Shown here in pieces: positions 50,627 to 57,452 of a stretch of 64,000 bases of DNA (position 1 is the first letter of the stretch; each line of letters opens with the position of its first letter). Under the pieces are notes generated by a model that did no database searches, was not told the DNA's origin, and saw nothing but the letters and a program-made list of their open reading frames with translations. Position numbers and translations under genes: made by a program. This stretch comes from Actinomycetota bacterium. Its GTDB lineage: Bacteria; Actinomycetota; Nitriliruptoria; Nitriliruptorales; Nitriliruptoraceae. Location of the stretch: assembly GCA_019347575.1 (NCBI GenBank), contig JAHWKY010000004.1:62001-126000 (forward strand), in the 5' to 3' direction.

Positions 50627-51414
50627 GCGTGGACGCGACCACGCACGACGCGACCGCCGATCGGACGATCGCAGCCCGCCTGCGGACCGTGCGGCGACGG
50701 ATCGAGGCGGCCTGCGACCGCGCCGGTCGCCGAGCGAGTGCGGTCGTGCTCATCGGCGTCACGAAGACGCATCCGCCGTCGGTCGCGCGCACCCTGGTGA
50801 CCGCCGGCGTGGGCGACCTCGGCGAAGCCCGGGTCGGGGAGTTGCTGGCCAAGGCGCCACACGTTCCCGACGCCAGGTGGCACCTGGTCGGGCGTCTCCA
50901 GAGCCGCAAGGCACGGGACGTGATCGGCGAGGCCGTCCTCGTCCACTCCGTCGATCGCCACTCGCTGATCGACGAGCTGTCCCGGCGAGCCGAGAGCGCC
51001 GGCGTCGTGCAACGGATCCTCGTGCAGGTGAACGTCGGTGACGACCCCGCGAAGGGCGGGTGCGAGGTAGACGGGACTCTGGACCTCGTCGCGTACGCTC
51101 GCAGCCGACCGAACTTGGCGGTCGAAGGGTTGATGACCATGCCACCGCTGCCTCCGGACGACGCCGATCCGGTCGAGGCTGCCCGCCCCCACTTCGCGCT
51201 GCTCCGTCGCCTCCGCGACGAAGCCCGCGAGAGGTGGCCGGAGGTGACCCACCTGTCGATGGGGATGAGCGCTGATCTCGAGGCGGCGGTCGAAGAGGGG
51301 GCGACGATGGTGCGAGTCGGGACCGCTCTGGTCGGTCCGCGGCGTCCGCATGCCTGGGAACCGGGGCGCTCAGGTAGCGGAGCGGTAGCGCGACCGGAAG
51401 GTGACCCCCGATGA
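50623..51414 (+). CDS. yggS: PLP-homeostasis protein YggS, tail encoded by a repeat
   Basis: A 263-residue pyridoxal-phosphate-binding TIM-barrel protein. The PLP lysine is Lys48 in LIGVTKTHPPSVARTL; DLGEARVGELLAK, WHLVGRLQSRKA, ILVQVNVGDDPAKGG, GLMTMPPLPPDD and LSMGMSADLEAAVEEGATMVRVGTALVG are the family motifs. The family normally ends there; the last 17 residues (PGRSGSGAVARPEGDPR) are coded by a hairpin repeat (51366-51391) and its flank. GTG 50623 overlaps pgeF; GTG 50629 is an alternative. It overlaps sepF as ATGA. Confidence 0.93.
   Translation: MSVDATTHDATADRTIAARLRTVRRRIEAACDRAGRRASAVVLIGVTKTHPPSVARTLVTAGVGDLGEARVGELLAKAPHVPDARWHLVGRLQSRKARDVIGEAVLVHSVDRHSLIDELSRRAESAGVVQRILVQVNVGDDPAKGGCEVDGTLDLVAYARSRPNLAVEGLMTMPPLPPDDADPVEAARPHFALLRRLRDEARERWPEVTHLSMGMSADLEAAVEEGATMVRVGTALVGPRRPHAWEPGRSGSGAVARPEGDPR
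51366..51391 (+). repeat. 26-nt hairpin repeat inside the yggS 3' end
   Basis: Variant beginning GCGCTCAGG and ending GTAGCGC. Compared with the copy at 7092, both outer arms change (GTGC to GCGC and GCAC to GCGC), so pairing is kept. It is translated as part of yggS and ends 19 bases before the sepF ATG. Confidence 0.85.
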
Positions 51415-51905
51415 GCGGCCTGTGGCGCAAGACCCTGATCTACCTCGGCCTGGTCGAGGAACCGGAGGACCACGACGATCTCCACGACCACTACGAGCCC
51501 GTACCCGCCCAGCAGGTGAGCGTTCCGCAACCCGAGCCCGTGCCGACGCGGCCCTCGAACGTCCGACCGCTCCGCGGGGCACCCGAGCCCGGGGCGGCGC
51601 ACGTGCGCCCCGTCCCGGCCGGCGGTGACCTCCGCATCAGCGTGGTGACCGTGCGAGAGTTCGACGACGTCGAGCAGGTCGGGGCGCGGTTCCGCAACGA
51701 CCAGCCCGTCGTCATCGATCTTCGCCTCGCCGACACGACCGTGGCGCGACGGGTGCTCGACTTCGTCAGCGGGATGACCTACGCCATGCGAGGACGCCTC
51801 ACCGGGGCGGGGAACCGTACGTTCTTGCTGACGCCGGACGGCGTCGAGCTCACGCCAGAGGAGCGCCGCCGCATCGAGGACCTGGCGCTCCGAGGTGAGG
51901 CGTGA
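51411..51905 (+). CDS. sepF: Cell division protein SepF
   Basis: FtsZ membrane anchor of 164 residues. The N-terminus MSGLWRKTLIYLGLVEEPED is the amphipathic membrane-binding helix; an acidic, Pro-rich linker follows; the core (about 78-160) shows ISVVTVREFDDVEQVGARFRNDQPVVIDLR, ARRVLDFVSGMTYAM and a GNRTFLLTPDGVEL end. GGAAGG lies about nine bases upstream, directly behind the hairpin repeat. It overlaps yggS and yggT. Confidence 0.95.
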   Translation: MSGLWRKTLIYLGLVEEPEDHDDLHDHYEPVPAQQVSVPQPEPVPTRPSNVRPLRGAPEPGAAHVRPVPAGGDLRISVVTVREFDDVEQVGARFRNDQPVVIDLRLADTTVARRVLDFVSGMTYAMRGRLTGAGNRTFLLTPDGVELTPEERRRIEDLALRGEA

Positions 51906-52159
51906 GGGAACTGCTGTGTCTGGTCGTCTGGGCGTACTTCATCATCCTCCTAGCTCACGTGGTCTTCTCCTGGGTCCCGCGCCCACCCGAGCCCATCCAG
52001 CCGCTGGTGCGTGGCGTGCGGGCGCTCGTCGAACCGGTCGCGGCCCCGTTGCGACGCCTCATCCCCCCGGCGCAGATGGGGACCGTGGCGTTGGATCTGT
52101 CGATCCTGGTGCTGTTCTTCGCGGTCATCCTCCTCCGGGCCGCCGTGTGCGGATCCTGA
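51902..52159 (+). CDS. yggT: YggT family membrane protein
   Basis: An 85-residue protein with two helices (LLCLVVWAYFIILLAHVVFSWV and VALDLSILVLFFAVILLRAA) joined by the conserved loop PPEPIQPLVRGVRALVEPVAAPLRRLIPP. YggT proteins are constant neighbours of sepF and divIVA; their role in envelope or division processes is poorly defined. GTG start in the sepF stop (GTGA). Confidence 0.92.
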   Translation: MRELLCLVVWAYFIILLAHVVFSWVPRPPEPIQPLVRGVRALVEPVAAPLRRLIPPAQMGTVALDLSILVLFFAVILLRAAVCGS

Positions 52160-52906: not shown

Positions 52907-53653
52907 GTGATCGTCCTCAGCTTCATCCTCGTTCTGGTGGCTGCGGTCACCCTCATCGTCGGTTTCTTCCAGGACACGCTCGCCTGGATCTACGTGTCCA
53001 TCGGTGCCTGCGTCGCGGCGATGGTGTTCCTCGCCATCGGCTGGATGCAGCGTCGCTCCGCCACGGCTCCGTCGGCCGCCGAGACCGGCTATGGCCCCGG
53101 CGCCACGACCGCCCCGACCGCGCGCCCCGCGACCACGCCCGCCGCCACGCGAGGCGAGACCGCTGCGCCGACCGGCCGCAAGGATGTGAAGGTCGTGCCG
53201 AAGAAGAGCACCGGCGAGGCGGCGGCTCCCGCTGCCTCCGAGGGCGCGACCACGGTCGTGCGGAAGAAGGCCACCGCGAGCACCACCGCGGAGGCGGAGC
53301 CGCAGGAGCCCGCTGCCGAGAAGACCGCGAAGAAGAAGGCCACCAAGAAGAAGGCGACCGCCAAGAAGACCACCAAGAAGGCGCCCGCGAAGAAGGCCGC
53401 GAAGAAGAAGGCGGCGAAGAAGAAGGCGGCGAAGAAGAAGGCACCCGCCAAGAAGGCCGCCGGTGGCAAGACCACGGGCAAGGCGGCGCGCGAGGCGCTC
53501 GGTTCCGTGAAGGGTCTGGGACCTGCGAAGGTCGACGCGCTGCTGAAGGAGTTCGGCTCCCTCGAGGACATCAAGGGCGCCAGCGAGTCCGACCTCGCCA
53601 AGGTCAAGGGCGTGGGCGACACGCTCGCCAAGCAGATCCAGAAGGCCCTGTAG
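52907..53653 (+). CDS. Membrane-anchored Lys-rich helix-hairpin-helix protein
   Basis: A 248-residue protein of composite build. Two membrane helices at the N-terminus (about 2-21 and 26-44), then a Pro/Ala/Thr linker, then a histone-H1-like tail of KKA/KKK repeats (about 125-190; units such as KKATKKKATAKK and KKAAKKKAAKKK), and a C-terminal helix-hairpin-helix domain (LGSVKGLGPAKVDALLKEFG and KVKGVGDTLAKQIQKAL). The parts suggest a membrane tether that binds DNA without sequence specificity. GTG 52907 has GAGGGG nine bases upstream; GTG 52901 is possible. It directly follows divIVA and ends at a strong hairpin. I know of no named family for it. Confidence 0.8.
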   Translation: MIVLSFILVLVAAVTLIVGFFQDTLAWIYVSIGACVAAMVFLAIGWMQRRSATAPSAAETGYGPGATTAPTARPATTPAATRGETAAPTGRKDVKVVPKKSTGEAAAPAASEGATTVVRKKATASTTAEAEPQEPAAEKTAKKKATKKKATAKKTTKKAPAKKAAKKKAAKKKAAKKKAPAKKAAGGKTTGKAAREALGSVKGLGPAKVDALLKEFGSLEDIKGASESDLAKVKGVGDTLAKQIQKAL

Positions 53654-53671: not shown

Positions 53672-54274
53672 TCACGCCCCGGGCTCGCCCGGGGCGTCGT
53701 CGTCCAGCGACCGCCGCGCCCCGACTCGCGCGGCCCGCTCGAGGGGGTTGTCGCGGTAGCCGTGGCGCGCCCACCACCACGCGTACAGGGGGATCAGCAG
53801 CGGACCGAGCCGTTCGGCTTGACGTACGTGCGTCGCCTCGTGCGCCAGCAGCAGAGCAGACGGCTGATCGTGGCGCGTGAGGATCACCTGACCGACGGCG
53901 TTCGCTGTGGTCGGCACGATGCGGAACAGCCACGACGCGCCGCCGTCCGCCGATCGGAACACCCAGCAGCCCAGGTCGTGATCGCGTTCGGGGCGCCGCC
54001 CGGAGGCGAACCCGATCACCGCCCCGACGAGGGTCAGCGGGGCCGACCAGGCCGCGGCGAGCACACGCCCCGTCCGGGTCCTCGGCCTACCGGGGATCCA
54101 AGCAGCGGTGGCCCGCGCCAGCGGGCCCTCACGGGCCGGCGGGGTGGTCCGGGTCGCGGCCGTGACCGGCGCGAGCAGGCCCCGGTCGACCAGTGACGCC
54201 TCGTGACGTTGCCGCAGGATGCCCACGACCCCGGCGGTGACCAGGGCGGCAACGGCGAGCCGGGCGGGGGGCAC
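53672..54274 (-). CDS. Zincin-like (HExxH) membrane protein
   Basis: A 200-residue protein with two predicted helices (LAVAALVTAGVVGIL and APLTLVGAVIGFA) and a metal site H-E-A-T-H in LLLAHEATHVRQAERLG, followed by a downstream NPLERAAR whose Glu could be the third ligand (as in DUF4157/M48-like zincins). It lacks the rest of known peptidase families, so activity is unsure. GTG 54274, four bases after the ileS stop, is preferred to an upstream ATG at 54334 that would overlap ileS by 56 bases. Its last codons form part of the terminator hairpin. Confidence 0.72.
   Translation of the reverse strand: MPPARLAVAALVTAGVVGILRQRHEASLVDRGLLAPVTAATRTTPPAREGPLARATAAWIPGRPRTRTGRVLAAAWSAPLTLVGAVIGFASGRRPERDHDLGCWVFRSADGGASWLFRIVPTTANAVGQVILTRHDQPSALLLAHEATHVRQAERLGPLLIPLYAWWWARHGYRDNPLERAARVGARRSLDDDAPGEPGA
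53675..53696. terminator. Strong bidirectional terminator hairpin
   Basis: A perfect 10-bp stem: CGCCCCGGGC, a 2-base TC turn (so the loop opens a pair or two), then GCCCGGGGCG. It lies 22 bases after the HhH gene stop, and its minus strand codes the last residues (APGEPG) of the convergent gene, so it serves both directions. Confidence 0.85.
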
Positions 54275-54278
54275 GAGC

Positions 54279-57200
54279 TCAGGCCCGTACGTCGACGGTG
54301 GCGTGCCCGAGCTCGCCGAGGTCGACCGCGACACCGCCGGTGACCGCCTCCCTCCGCACCTCGTCCGCCAGGACCTCGGCGGCGACCACGTCGTACCAGC
54401 CTCCCTCAGCCAGCAGGCGGTCGAGGTCGGGGCTCGACACCTCGACGATCACCTCGATGCGGTCGTTGAGCGCGAGGTCGAGCGCCTTGCGGCGGTCGTT
54501 CAGTGCCCTCACGAGCTCACGTGCGGCGCCCTCGGCGAGCAGCGTGTCGTCGAGGTCGAGGTCGAGCGCGATAGAGGTGCTCGCCTCCGCCGCGAGCTCC
54601 CAGCCCGTCCGAGGGGTCTCCACCACCTCGACCATCTCCGGTGTCAGCGACCAGGACACGCCGCCCACGCTCAGTTCGGCCGTGCCCGCTGTGCGCAGCG
54701 TCTCGACGACACGCGCGACGTCCGCGGGATCGGCGCCCGAGATCGCCTCCGCCACACGGGGGGCATCCTTGCCGAACACCGGCCCCAGGCCGCGGAAGTT
54801 GGGCTTGAGGGTGCGATCCACGAGCTCGTCGGAACCGGTCGCCAGTTCGATCGTCTTGACGTTCAGCTCATCCGCGATCTCGTCGACGAGCGTGGCCAGA
54901 CCCTTGCGCTCCTGCTCGGGGACCGTGACGAGCGCCCGGCGGAGCGGCTGGCGTACCTTCACCCCGGAGCTGTTGCGGGCCTGGCGACCCAGCTCGACCA
55001 CGCGCCGGGCGGTGCTCATCGCAGCGCGCAGCTCGTCGTCGCGCCACGCCGCCTCGGCGGCCGGGAAGTCGGTCAGGTGCACCGAGACGGCGGCGTCCGC
55101 GTCCCAGGAGGCCACGAGGTCGTACCACAGGCGGTCGGCGATGAACGGGGTGAACGGGGCGAGCAGTCCCGCGAGCGTCCGTAGCGAGGTCCAGAGCGTG
55201 TGGTAGGCGGCGGACTTGTCCGCTGGGTCGTCGTCGATGGCGCGCCAGAAGCGCCTCCGGCTGCGCCTGACGTACCAGTTGGAGAGGTCGTCGACGAAGC
55301 TCTCGATGCGCCGACACGCCGTCGTCACGTCGTAGCGGTCCATGGCCGCGTCGACCGTGTCGGCGAGGTCGGCGAGCTCAGCCAGGATCCAGCGGTCCAG
55401 AAGGGGGCGGTCACCGACCACCGGCGCGGAGTTGCGTGGATCGAAGCCGTCCAGGCGGGCGTAGGTCATGAAGAAGTAGTGCGTGTTCCACAGGGTCAGC
55501 AGAAAGCGGCGGACGACGTCCTCGACGGTGTGGTGACCGACGCGGCGGTTCACCCACGGGTTGCCCTCGGCGAGCATGAGCCAACGCAGGGCGTCGGCCC
55601 CGTGGGCCTCGATCAGCTCGAACGGATCGATCACGTTGCCGAGCGACTTCGACATCTTCTTGCCGTCCTCGTCCACGATGTGGCCCAGGCACAGCACCGT
55701 CCGGAAGCTCGAGGTGTCGAACAGCAGCGTGGACTCTGCGAGCAGCGTGTAGAACCACCCCCGCGTCTGGTCGATGGCCTCGGCGATGAAGTCGGCGGGG
55801 AAGTGGCGTTCGAACTCCTCGTGGCCCTGGTGGGGATAGCCCCACTGGGCGAAGGGCATGCCGCCGGAGTCGAACCAGGCGTCCGCGACCTCGGGTACAC
55901 GGCGCTGGGCGCCTCCACACTCGGGGCAGGTCAGCTCGATCTCGTCGACGTACGGTCGGTGCGGGTCGAGCTGCGACAGGTCGCGCCCCACCAGCTCCCC
56001 GAGGTGGGCACGTGACGAGGCCACGGTCACGTGCTCGCAGCTGTCGCAGCGCCAGAACGGCAGGGGCGTGCCCCAGTAGCGGTCCCGCGACAGAGCCCAG
56101 TCGACGTTGTTCTCGAGCCAGTTGCCGAAGCGGCCCTCGCGGATGTGCTCCGGGTGCCACGAGATCCCGGCGTTGTTGGCGAGGAGACGGTCGCGCTGCG
56201 CGGTCGTGCGGATGTACCACGACGGCTTCGCGTAGTACAGCAGCGGCGTGCCACAGCGCCAGCAGAACGGGTAGGTGTGCTCGTAGCGGCCGCTCTTGAC
56301 GAGCACCCCGAGCGCGTCGAGTTCCTGGGTGATGGCGTCGTCGGCGTCCTTGACGAACCGGCCTTCCTGCGACCCCCTCGTGAACCGTCCCTCGAGGTCG
56401 ACGGCGGAGACGACGGGCAGGTCGTGCGCGCGCCCGATCGCCATATCGTCGGCACCGAACGCCGACGCCGAGTGGACCAGCCCGGTCCCGTCGGTGGTCG
56501 TCACGAAGTCGCCGGTCACCACGTAGCGGTAGTCCGTGTCGACGTCGACGAACTCGAACGGCGCCTGGTAGTGCAGACCCACCAGCTCATCGGCCGTGAC
56601 GTCGCGGACCACCTCGGTCTCGTCGCCCAGCACCGGGGCGCGCAGGTCGGCAGCGATGACCAGCAACCGTCCCTCGTGGCGGACGAGCTGGTAGGCGATG
56701 TCGACCCCGACCACCACCGCGTTGTTGGCGTGGAGGGTCCACGGCGTCGTCGTCCACACGAGCAGCGAGGCGCCCTCGTCCGCCAGCGGTCCGTCGAGGA
56801 GCGGGAACCGCACGTACACGCTGGGATCGGAGGCGGTCGCGTACCCCTGGGCGACCTCGGCGTCCGACAACGCGGTCCCACAGCGCGCGCAGTAGGGCGT
56901 GACCCGGTGGTCCTCGTGGATCAGGTCCCGGTCCCACAGCTCCGCGAGTGCCCACCACAGCGAATCCACGTAGCTGGCGTCCATGGTCCAGTAGGCGTCA
57001 TCGAGGTCGACCCAGAACCCGATCCGCTCGGTGAGGTCTGCCCAGACGTCGACGTACTGGGTGACCGAATCCCGGCACCGCCGGTTGAACTCCTCGATGC
57101 CGAAGCGCTCGATGTCGGACTTCGAGTTGAGCCCGAGCGCTCTCTCGACCTCCAGCTCGACCGGGAGCCCGTGGCAGTCCCACCCGCCCTTCCGGAGGAC

Positions 57201-57452
57201 GAGGTGACCCTTCATCGTGCGGTAACGCGGGAAGACGTCCTTGAAGGTGCGCGACTCGACGTGGTGGGTACCGGGCCTGCCGTTGGCGGTCGGAGGGCCC
57301 TCGTAGAAGGTCCACACGGGCCCTTCGGCGCGCAGGGCGACGCTGCGGTGGAACACGTCGTGCTCGCGCCACCGGGAGAGCACCTCGGCCTCGAACGCCG
57401 GCAGGTCGGGGCGGTTGGGGACGTCGGGCCAGACGGTCTCGGGGTCGGTCAT
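54279..57452 (-). CDS. ileS: Isoleucyl-tRNA synthetase
   Basis: Class Ia synthetase of 1057 residues charging tRNA-Ile. The HIGH-like motif is in PPTANGRPGTHHVESRTFKD (HHVE form of the type-2, actinobacterial/eukaryote-like enzymes); KMSKS is in DEDGKKMSKSLGNVIDPFE. CP1 editing segment LLVWTTTPWTLHANNAVVVG and zinc-type pairs (YCARCG, CWRCG, CDSC, CPECGG) are visible. The long C-terminal tRNA-binding part is complete. ATG 57452. The type-2 form is often associated with mupirocin resistance. Regulated by the T-box upstream. Confidence 0.97.
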   Translation of the reverse strand: MTDPETVWPDVPNRPDLPAFEAEVLSRWREHDVFHRSVALRAEGPVWTFYEGPPTANGRPGTHHVESRTFKDVFPRYRTMKGHLVLRKGGWDCHGLPVELEVERALGLNSKSDIERFGIEEFNRRCRDSVTQYVDVWADLTERIGFWVDLDDAYWTMDASYVDSLWWALAELWDRDLIHEDHRVTPYCARCGTALSDAEVAQGYATASDPSVYVRFPLLDGPLADEGASLLVWTTTPWTLHANNAVVVGVDIAYQLVRHEGRLLVIAADLRAPVLGDETEVVRDVTADELVGLHYQAPFEFVDVDTDYRYVVTGDFVTTTDGTGLVHSASAFGADDMAIGRAHDLPVVSAVDLEGRFTRGSQEGRFVKDADDAITQELDALGVLVKSGRYEHTYPFCWRCGTPLLYYAKPSWYIRTTAQRDRLLANNAGISWHPEHIREGRFGNWLENNVDWALSRDRYWGTPLPFWRCDSCEHVTVASSRAHLGELVGRDLSQLDPHRPYVDEIELTCPECGGAQRRVPEVADAWFDSGGMPFAQWGYPHQGHEEFERHFPADFIAEAIDQTRGWFYTLLAESTLLFDTSSFRTVLCLGHIVDEDGKKMSKSLGNVIDPFELIEAHGADALRWLMLAEGNPWVNRRVGHHTVEDVVRRFLLTLWNTHYFFMTYARLDGFDPRNSAPVVGDRPLLDRWILAELADLADTVDAAMDRYDVTTACRRIESFVDDLSNWYVRRSRRRFWRAIDDDPADKSAAYHTLWTSLRTLAGLLAPFTPFIADRLWYDLVASWDADAAVSVHLTDFPAAEAAWRDDELRAAMSTARRVVELGRQARNSSGVKVRQPLRRALVTVPEQERKGLATLVDEIADELNVKTIELATGSDELVDRTLKPNFRGLGPVFGKDAPRVAEAISGADPADVARVVETLRTAGTAELSVGGVSWSLTPEMVEVVETPRTGWELAAEASTSIALDLDLDDTLLAEGAARELVRALNDRRKALDLALNDRIEVIVEVSSPDLDRLLAEGGWYDVVAAEVLADEVRREAVTGGVAVDLGELGHATVDVRA

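Follow-up and report, generated by a model that had tools for sequence, protein, structure and literature searches.

The gene immediately downstream of divIVA in the window (the whole stretch of 64,000 nucleotides analysed here) encodes, as judged by sequence comparison, a member of an unnamed family of small divIVA-linked membrane proteins that spans the phylum. The conserved part of this family, on the same evidence, is a membrane hairpin, whereas the cytoplasmic end is exchanged. A preliminary description of the window protein missed that the hairpin, and not the tail, is the conserved part; we regard the family with its exchangeable tails as a more interesting finding than the reading of the window protein as a tether between membrane and nucleoid. 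In many actinobacteria, among them the mycobacteria, the gene is a neighbour of divIVA (wag31), and the swapping of its tails provides a concrete hypothesis for how the division or polar machinery contacts the nucleoid. For the window protein itself, we consider a role as a membrane-to-nucleoid tether near DivIVA to be evenly poised between right and wrong.

Table 1. Coordinates of the hairpin gene, its segments and its neighbours within the window.
Feature	Coordinates	Strand	Remarks
Hairpin/K-tail/HhH protein	52907..53653	+	248 aa; GTG start, TAG stop, frame open
Transmembrane hairpin, residues 1-52	52907..53062	+	Conserved family core; predicted N-in/C-in
Disordered Ala/Thr/Pro/Glu linker	53063..53314	+	Low AlphaFold confidence; poorly alignable
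KKA/KKT/APAKK repeat tail, H1/HU-tail-like	53315..53491	+	22 Lys in best 40-residue window
(HhH)2 domain, residues 197-248, hairpins GLGPAK and GVGDTL	53495..53650	+	HHH_5 match and predicted fold
sepF	51411..51905	+	In conserved neighbourhood
yggT/ylmG (sepG homologue)	51902..52159	+	In conserved neighbourhood
divIVA, 210 aa	52173..52805	+	PF05103, 1.7e-22; directly upstream of hairpin gene
ileS	54279..57452	-	Convergent; downstream boundary of conserved neighbourhood

The preliminary description had recognized two membrane helices, a KKA-repeat tail and a C-terminal helix-hairpin-helix (HhH) joined in one protein, and hydropathy, an AlphaFold model and a Pfam scan agree with this plan (Table 1). 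The GTG codon at 52907 is the likely start because, in four homologues (L118, L119, L130 and L132), a stop lies two codons ahead of the aligned residue and leaves that codon as the sole possible start. By mean Kyte-Doolittle hydropathy, residues 1-17 (3.2) and 28-44 (2.5) form two hydrophobic stretches that precede a QRR. The AlphaFold model, with ten homologues, places helices at residues 2-20 and 24-52 and folds the C-terminal HhH confidently (blocks about 90), whereas its confidence is low between about residues 51 and 190. Residues 197-248 matched Pfam HHH_5 with an E-value of 8.8e-12, and the score of 45.8 bits clears the cut-off of 27. The predicted fold of this domain matches PDB entries 2nrv, 1x2i and 2bgw and superposes on the HhH structures of UvrC, XPF/ERCC1 and Hef at 1.1-1.4 Å over 52-59 columns; its best Foldseek E-value is only 3.6e-3, which is modest because the domain is short. 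The PDB sequence matches of the HhH part include UvrC, Hef, XPF, DisA and LigA, headed by the HhH of the archaeal ribosomal protein eL32, and for residues 193-248 UvrC ranks among the top scorers in both curated families and structures. These residues resemble the C-terminal (HhH)2 of UvrC, although the window protein lacks nuclease domains and carries the domain on a membrane anchor. The proposed kinship of the tail with those of HU and H1 holds for its KKA, KKT and APAKK repeats but goes no further than composition, as the histone H1-like HC2 model reached 14.6 bits against a cut-off of 40 in the Pfam scan. Comparison across the family indicates that the architecture is a real feature and not chance, since the hairpin, and frequently the HhH as well, is retained by homologues from other genera.

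Averaged across 65 family members, the segment ahead of helix 1 has a net charge of about 0, the loop between the helices one of -1 and the segment following helix 2 one of +2.6. This pattern fits the positive-inside rule, and by this charge rule the tail is therefore predicted to be cytoplasmic, with both ends of the protein inside the cell. Values of pN/pS come from the same-genus pair L118/L119, because all other pairs have diverged too far or have no HhH; the hairpin stands at 0.22, the linker at 0.46 and the last 54 residues at 0.35.

The hairpin profile (A1) was built from 17 rows, one of which is the window protein itself, matched at an E-value of 1.0e-28. It found homologues in 31 of the 66 genomes of the window's class and in at least 57 of the 396 genomes sampled from the phylum, the latter count being a lower bound because 15 candidates were scored per genome. 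The surroundings of the homologues were marked for YggS, SepF, YggT, DivIVA and IleS, and the gene order yggS-sepF-yggT-divIVA-hairpin gene recurs across Actinomycetota. As the preliminary description had noted for the window, the hairpin gene directly follows divIVA, here in the ftsZ-sepF-divIVA cluster and after a gap of 101 bp; in 61 of the 65 accepted homologues, a same-strand DivIVA gene lies at most 400 bp upstream, a fraction that is somewhat flattering compared with 61 of 71 over all hits, since the accepted homologues are those lying in this neighbourhood. The remaining four are found at contig edges or beside yggT/ileS. Six profile matches outside the cluster (L094, L106, L108, L109, L111 and L112) were left out after inspection; five of them are weak, and the stronger L094 (9e-10) may, by its sequence match, be a real paralogue. 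A full-alignment scan of named genomes returned one locus only, from Euzebyales bacterium MGR_bin271. Within the 101-bp gap, no sigma-70-like promoter and no terminator on the + strand were found, which makes co-transcription of the hairpin gene with divIVA plausible; a search for Rfam RNAs between 51000 and 55000 found none.

The cytoplasmic ends vary greatly, from almost 0 to about 400 residues in length. A lysine-rich tail (K-tail) together with HhH occurs in the window protein and in L118, L119, L121, L123 and L127; HhH without K-tail in L115, L122, L130, L132, L134 and L138; and K-tail without HhH in L079 (counted under K-tail only), L081, L082, L091, L092, L093 and L124 (partly masked). 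At least eight families (f1, f2, f5, f11, f14, f44, f67 and f74) combine this hairpin with a basic Lys/Ala/Pro tail, the tail is proline-rich (poly-proline) in family f3 and acidic in mycobacteria and two f6 genomes, and it is nearly absent in f4, f12 and others. The combination described for the window protein extends to its homologues in part: the hairpin recurs phylum-wide, but the K-tail/HhH end is not constant. No homologue without the membrane part was encountered; instead, many homologues retain the membrane part and lack the DNA part. Since many homologues have no DNA-like tail at all, the conserved function of the family, so far as sequence conservation indicates, resides in the hairpin. 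In L126, L128, L129 and L131, the C-terminal end consists of about eight or nine prolines plus alanine and is conserved across one genus. L079 and L082 carry copies of a PIxxYDxLxxxEIxPLLPxL module before the K-tail, related to the C-terminus of Rv1109c; L082 matched this lipid-droplet protein in NCBIfam at 9e-5, below the cut-off.

Among the homologues, HhH is present in 12 proteins of three families, all within the window's class. The second hairpin of the domain reads GxG in five of the six K-tail proteins and GxS, GxT or GxD in all six without K-tail, in a comparison of sequences that are not independent. UvrC of the same genome has GVS at this position, so the GxS type does not signify a loss of DNA binding. 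Another recurrent end is an Ada-like HxxxC...CxxC segment, found in L075-L078, L080, the second copy of L093, L096, L099 and L103 and present on the same hairpin in families f6, f11, f14 and f57. Pfam Ada_Zn_binding matches seven of the nine segments, with a best E-value of 4.5e-5 that lies below the Pfam cut-off, and a profile of the segments retrieved Ada alone from the PDB at insignificant E-values of 0.4-0.9. From this sequence resemblance, the Ada-like end is possibly a second nucleic-acid module on the same hairpin.

The DivIVA N-terminus of family f29 equals that of Wag31 in PDB entry 6lfa at 58 of 59 positions, and this near-identity is why we take f29 to be mycobacteria. Its hairpin protein, directly after wag31, has about 107-121 residues, an acidic tail and no HhH, and matches the hairpin profile at E-values of about 3e-6 to 2e-9. 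From position and length, we presume that this is the gene Rv2144c. It is described as an exported or transmembrane protein of unknown function (PMC5405230), in the only paper that our literature search found for the wag31-adjacent gene; no assigned function was found. The Rv2144c-type protein shares the hairpin and the place after wag31 with the window protein but has an acidic tail without HhH instead of a basic tail with HhH. Its identification as SepX/GlpR or SCO2097 was rejected; the NCBIfam matches (about 4e-4) are far below cut-off and were taken to reflect membrane and acidic composition.

In the tether reading, the hairpin would hold the window protein in the membrane with both ends in the cytoplasm, and the cytoplasmic end would act as an exchangeable effector. 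The flexible lysine-rich tail would bind DNA electrostatically, the UvrC-type (HhH)2 would grip the DNA backbone or junctions, and through the protein nucleoid DNA would be held loosely at the membrane, probably at the sites where DivIVA and the division proteins assemble. We infer DNA binding, co-localization with DivIVA and tethering from the HHH_5 match above cut-off, the fold match to the DNA-binding HhH of UvrC and XPF/ERCC1, the charge topology, the retained order next to divIVA, the Lys/Ala/Pro tails in eight families, the rarity of a KKxxKK-type pattern in this genome, the Ada-like ends and the pN/pS values of L118/L119. Against it stand the many tails that are acidic, poly-proline or almost missing, the Ada-like match below the Pfam cut-off, HhH domains and K-tails on proteins of the same genome without obvious DNA role, and a ParB_N protein. 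Because many homologues keep the membrane part without the DNA part, tethering cannot be what the family does in general; the best reading would confine it to lineages with such tails rather than make it ancestral. More broadly, several lineages of the divIVA-coupled hairpin family, which includes the Rv2144c position, may independently have made a chromosome-membrane tether through K-tail, HhH or Ada-like ends, and thereby a ParB-independent attachment of bulk DNA at the pole or septum; we offer this only tentatively, at well under an even chance.

RacA is a soluble DNA-binding protein of specific sites with a helix-turn-helix and is not known to have membrane helices, HhH or K-tail, and in the Pfam scan of the window protein no RacA-type helix-turn-helix was matched. 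The proposed role had been thought to be without precedent in a known family; however, RacA attaches the chromosome to the pole via DivIVA in Bacillus subtilis, and Rv3852 of M. tuberculosis, a KAAK/PAAK-repeat protein anchored by a membrane helix, binds both DNA and Wag31 and influences where Wag31 localizes (PMC8233713). The window protein is like Rv3852 in its Lys/Ala/Pro HU/H1-like repeats, membrane anchor and link to DivIVA (Wag31), DNA binding having been shown for Rv3852. Nevertheless, Rv3852 has a single C-terminal membrane helix and no reported HhH, while the window protein carries its membrane hairpin at the N-terminus and an HhH at the C-terminus and is encoded adjacent to divIVA; Rv3852 is also confined to M. 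tuberculosis and close relatives. The window protein would be a membrane-anchored kind of nucleoid protein that may work like Rv3852, but its architecture sets it outside the Rv3852 family. The KPAA tails of AlgP/PhaF bind DNA and presumably link granules to the nucleoid (PMC9239181); they share the lysine-rich repeats, but these proteins are granule-associated rather than integral to the membrane and have no HhH. In Corynebacterium, ParB is the link by which DivIVA tethers the origin (PMC8872289). With precedents in Rv3852, AlgP/PhaF, DivIVA-ParB and YlmG/SepG, the tether step is reasonable. SepG/YlmG of the YggT family, a small membrane protein that affects nucleoid compaction in Streptomyces (PMC4852450), belongs to the same cluster and is here the neighbour upstream of divIVA; it is of a different family, has no DNA-binding tail, and YggT was not matched in the Pfam scan of the window protein.

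Both modules occur elsewhere in the genome (4.9 Mb in 120 contigs). K-tail frequency was taken from a KKxxKK-type DNA pattern, which appears in only about five genes genome-wide; among the K-tailed proteins are an acyl-CoA ligase-like protein and a phasin-family protein (PF05597, 1.4e-7; L160:1066-1578 (+), G000:C9 near 11667) with a KKT/KKA tail. The closest relative of the window-protein HhH in its own genome, at 51%, belongs to a 508-aa protein (L167:3650-5173 (-), G000:C1 near 74164), a second membrane-anchored HhH protein, in which a signal-like N-terminus and a large outer part precede a single-pass membrane helix and a C-terminal HhH; UvrC, initially a candidate for this place, was wrong. 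A very long coiled-coil protein (L168:651-3983 (+), G000:C1 near 20785) has an acidic linker and HhH at its end, and one frame (L169:3499-7497 (-), G000:C2 near 8567) joins Liv-type ABC permease parts to an ATPase ending in HhH, a DNA-binding-type domain on a transporter. The plan of L160 resembles that of PhaF, the presumed granule-to-nucleoid tether. Since HhH and K-tail both sit on proteins without obvious DNA role, neither proves a nucleoid role. The ParB_N protein means that another route of origin attachment to DivIVA is available, and ordinary attachment via ParB may be present alongside.

These occurrences also favour the possible, though doubtful, alternative that the hairpin is a DivIVA/divisome partner or membrane organizer whose tail is a generic arm for polyanion or protein contacts (anionic lipid, RNA, acidic proteins or HhH-mediated protein contacts), with DNA attachment not its role. 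It is favoured by a hairpin that is conserved beneath tails that may be basic, acidic, proline-rich or missing; the repeated appearance of strongly basic tails across many families and the GxG retained in five of six K-tail forms speak against it. The natural tail variants permit direct comparison and tail swaps.

UvrC, XPF/ERCC1, DisA and RuvA, the closest HhH relatives of the domain, act on branched or damaged DNA. Together with the location in the ftsZ-sepF-divIVA cluster, this suits a septal or polar DNA-structure sensor, in which the (HhH)2 would read junctions or trapped or damaged DNA and signal to the division machinery as a checkpoint rather than a tether. We find this unlikely: the protein has no signalling or catalytic domain, its long K-tail suits bulk DNA over structure-specific recognition, and homologues at the same position lack HhH. 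Equally improbable is a largely neutral tail, made of GC-rich Ala/Lys/Pro low complexity and a shuffled HhH on a short membrane protein; the fast-evolving, unalignable linker and the wide range of tail lengths agree with it, but HhH is kept in 12 homologues of three families and is under purifying selection in L118/L119. Finally, a ComEA-like surface receptor for DNA uptake, suggested by the membrane segment, the C-terminal HhH and a ComEC-family protein in the genome, is highly improbable and was rejected on topology, as two helices and positive-inside charges put the HhH in the cytoplasm, and on a comE score of 15.2 bits against a cut-off of 152.35, and there is no link to competence genes.

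Two minor observations concern the surroundings of the hairpin gene. At L093:2980-4152 (+), tandem hairpin genes, one K-tailed and the other with K-tail and Ada-like end, lie between yggT and ileS, and divIVA was not recognized at this locus. In the window, positions 53672-54334 (-), between the hairpin gene and ileS, encode a protein of 220 aa that contains a membrane helix and the motif AHEATHVRQ, and frames resembling it occupy the same site in relatives where the hairpin gene was undetected.
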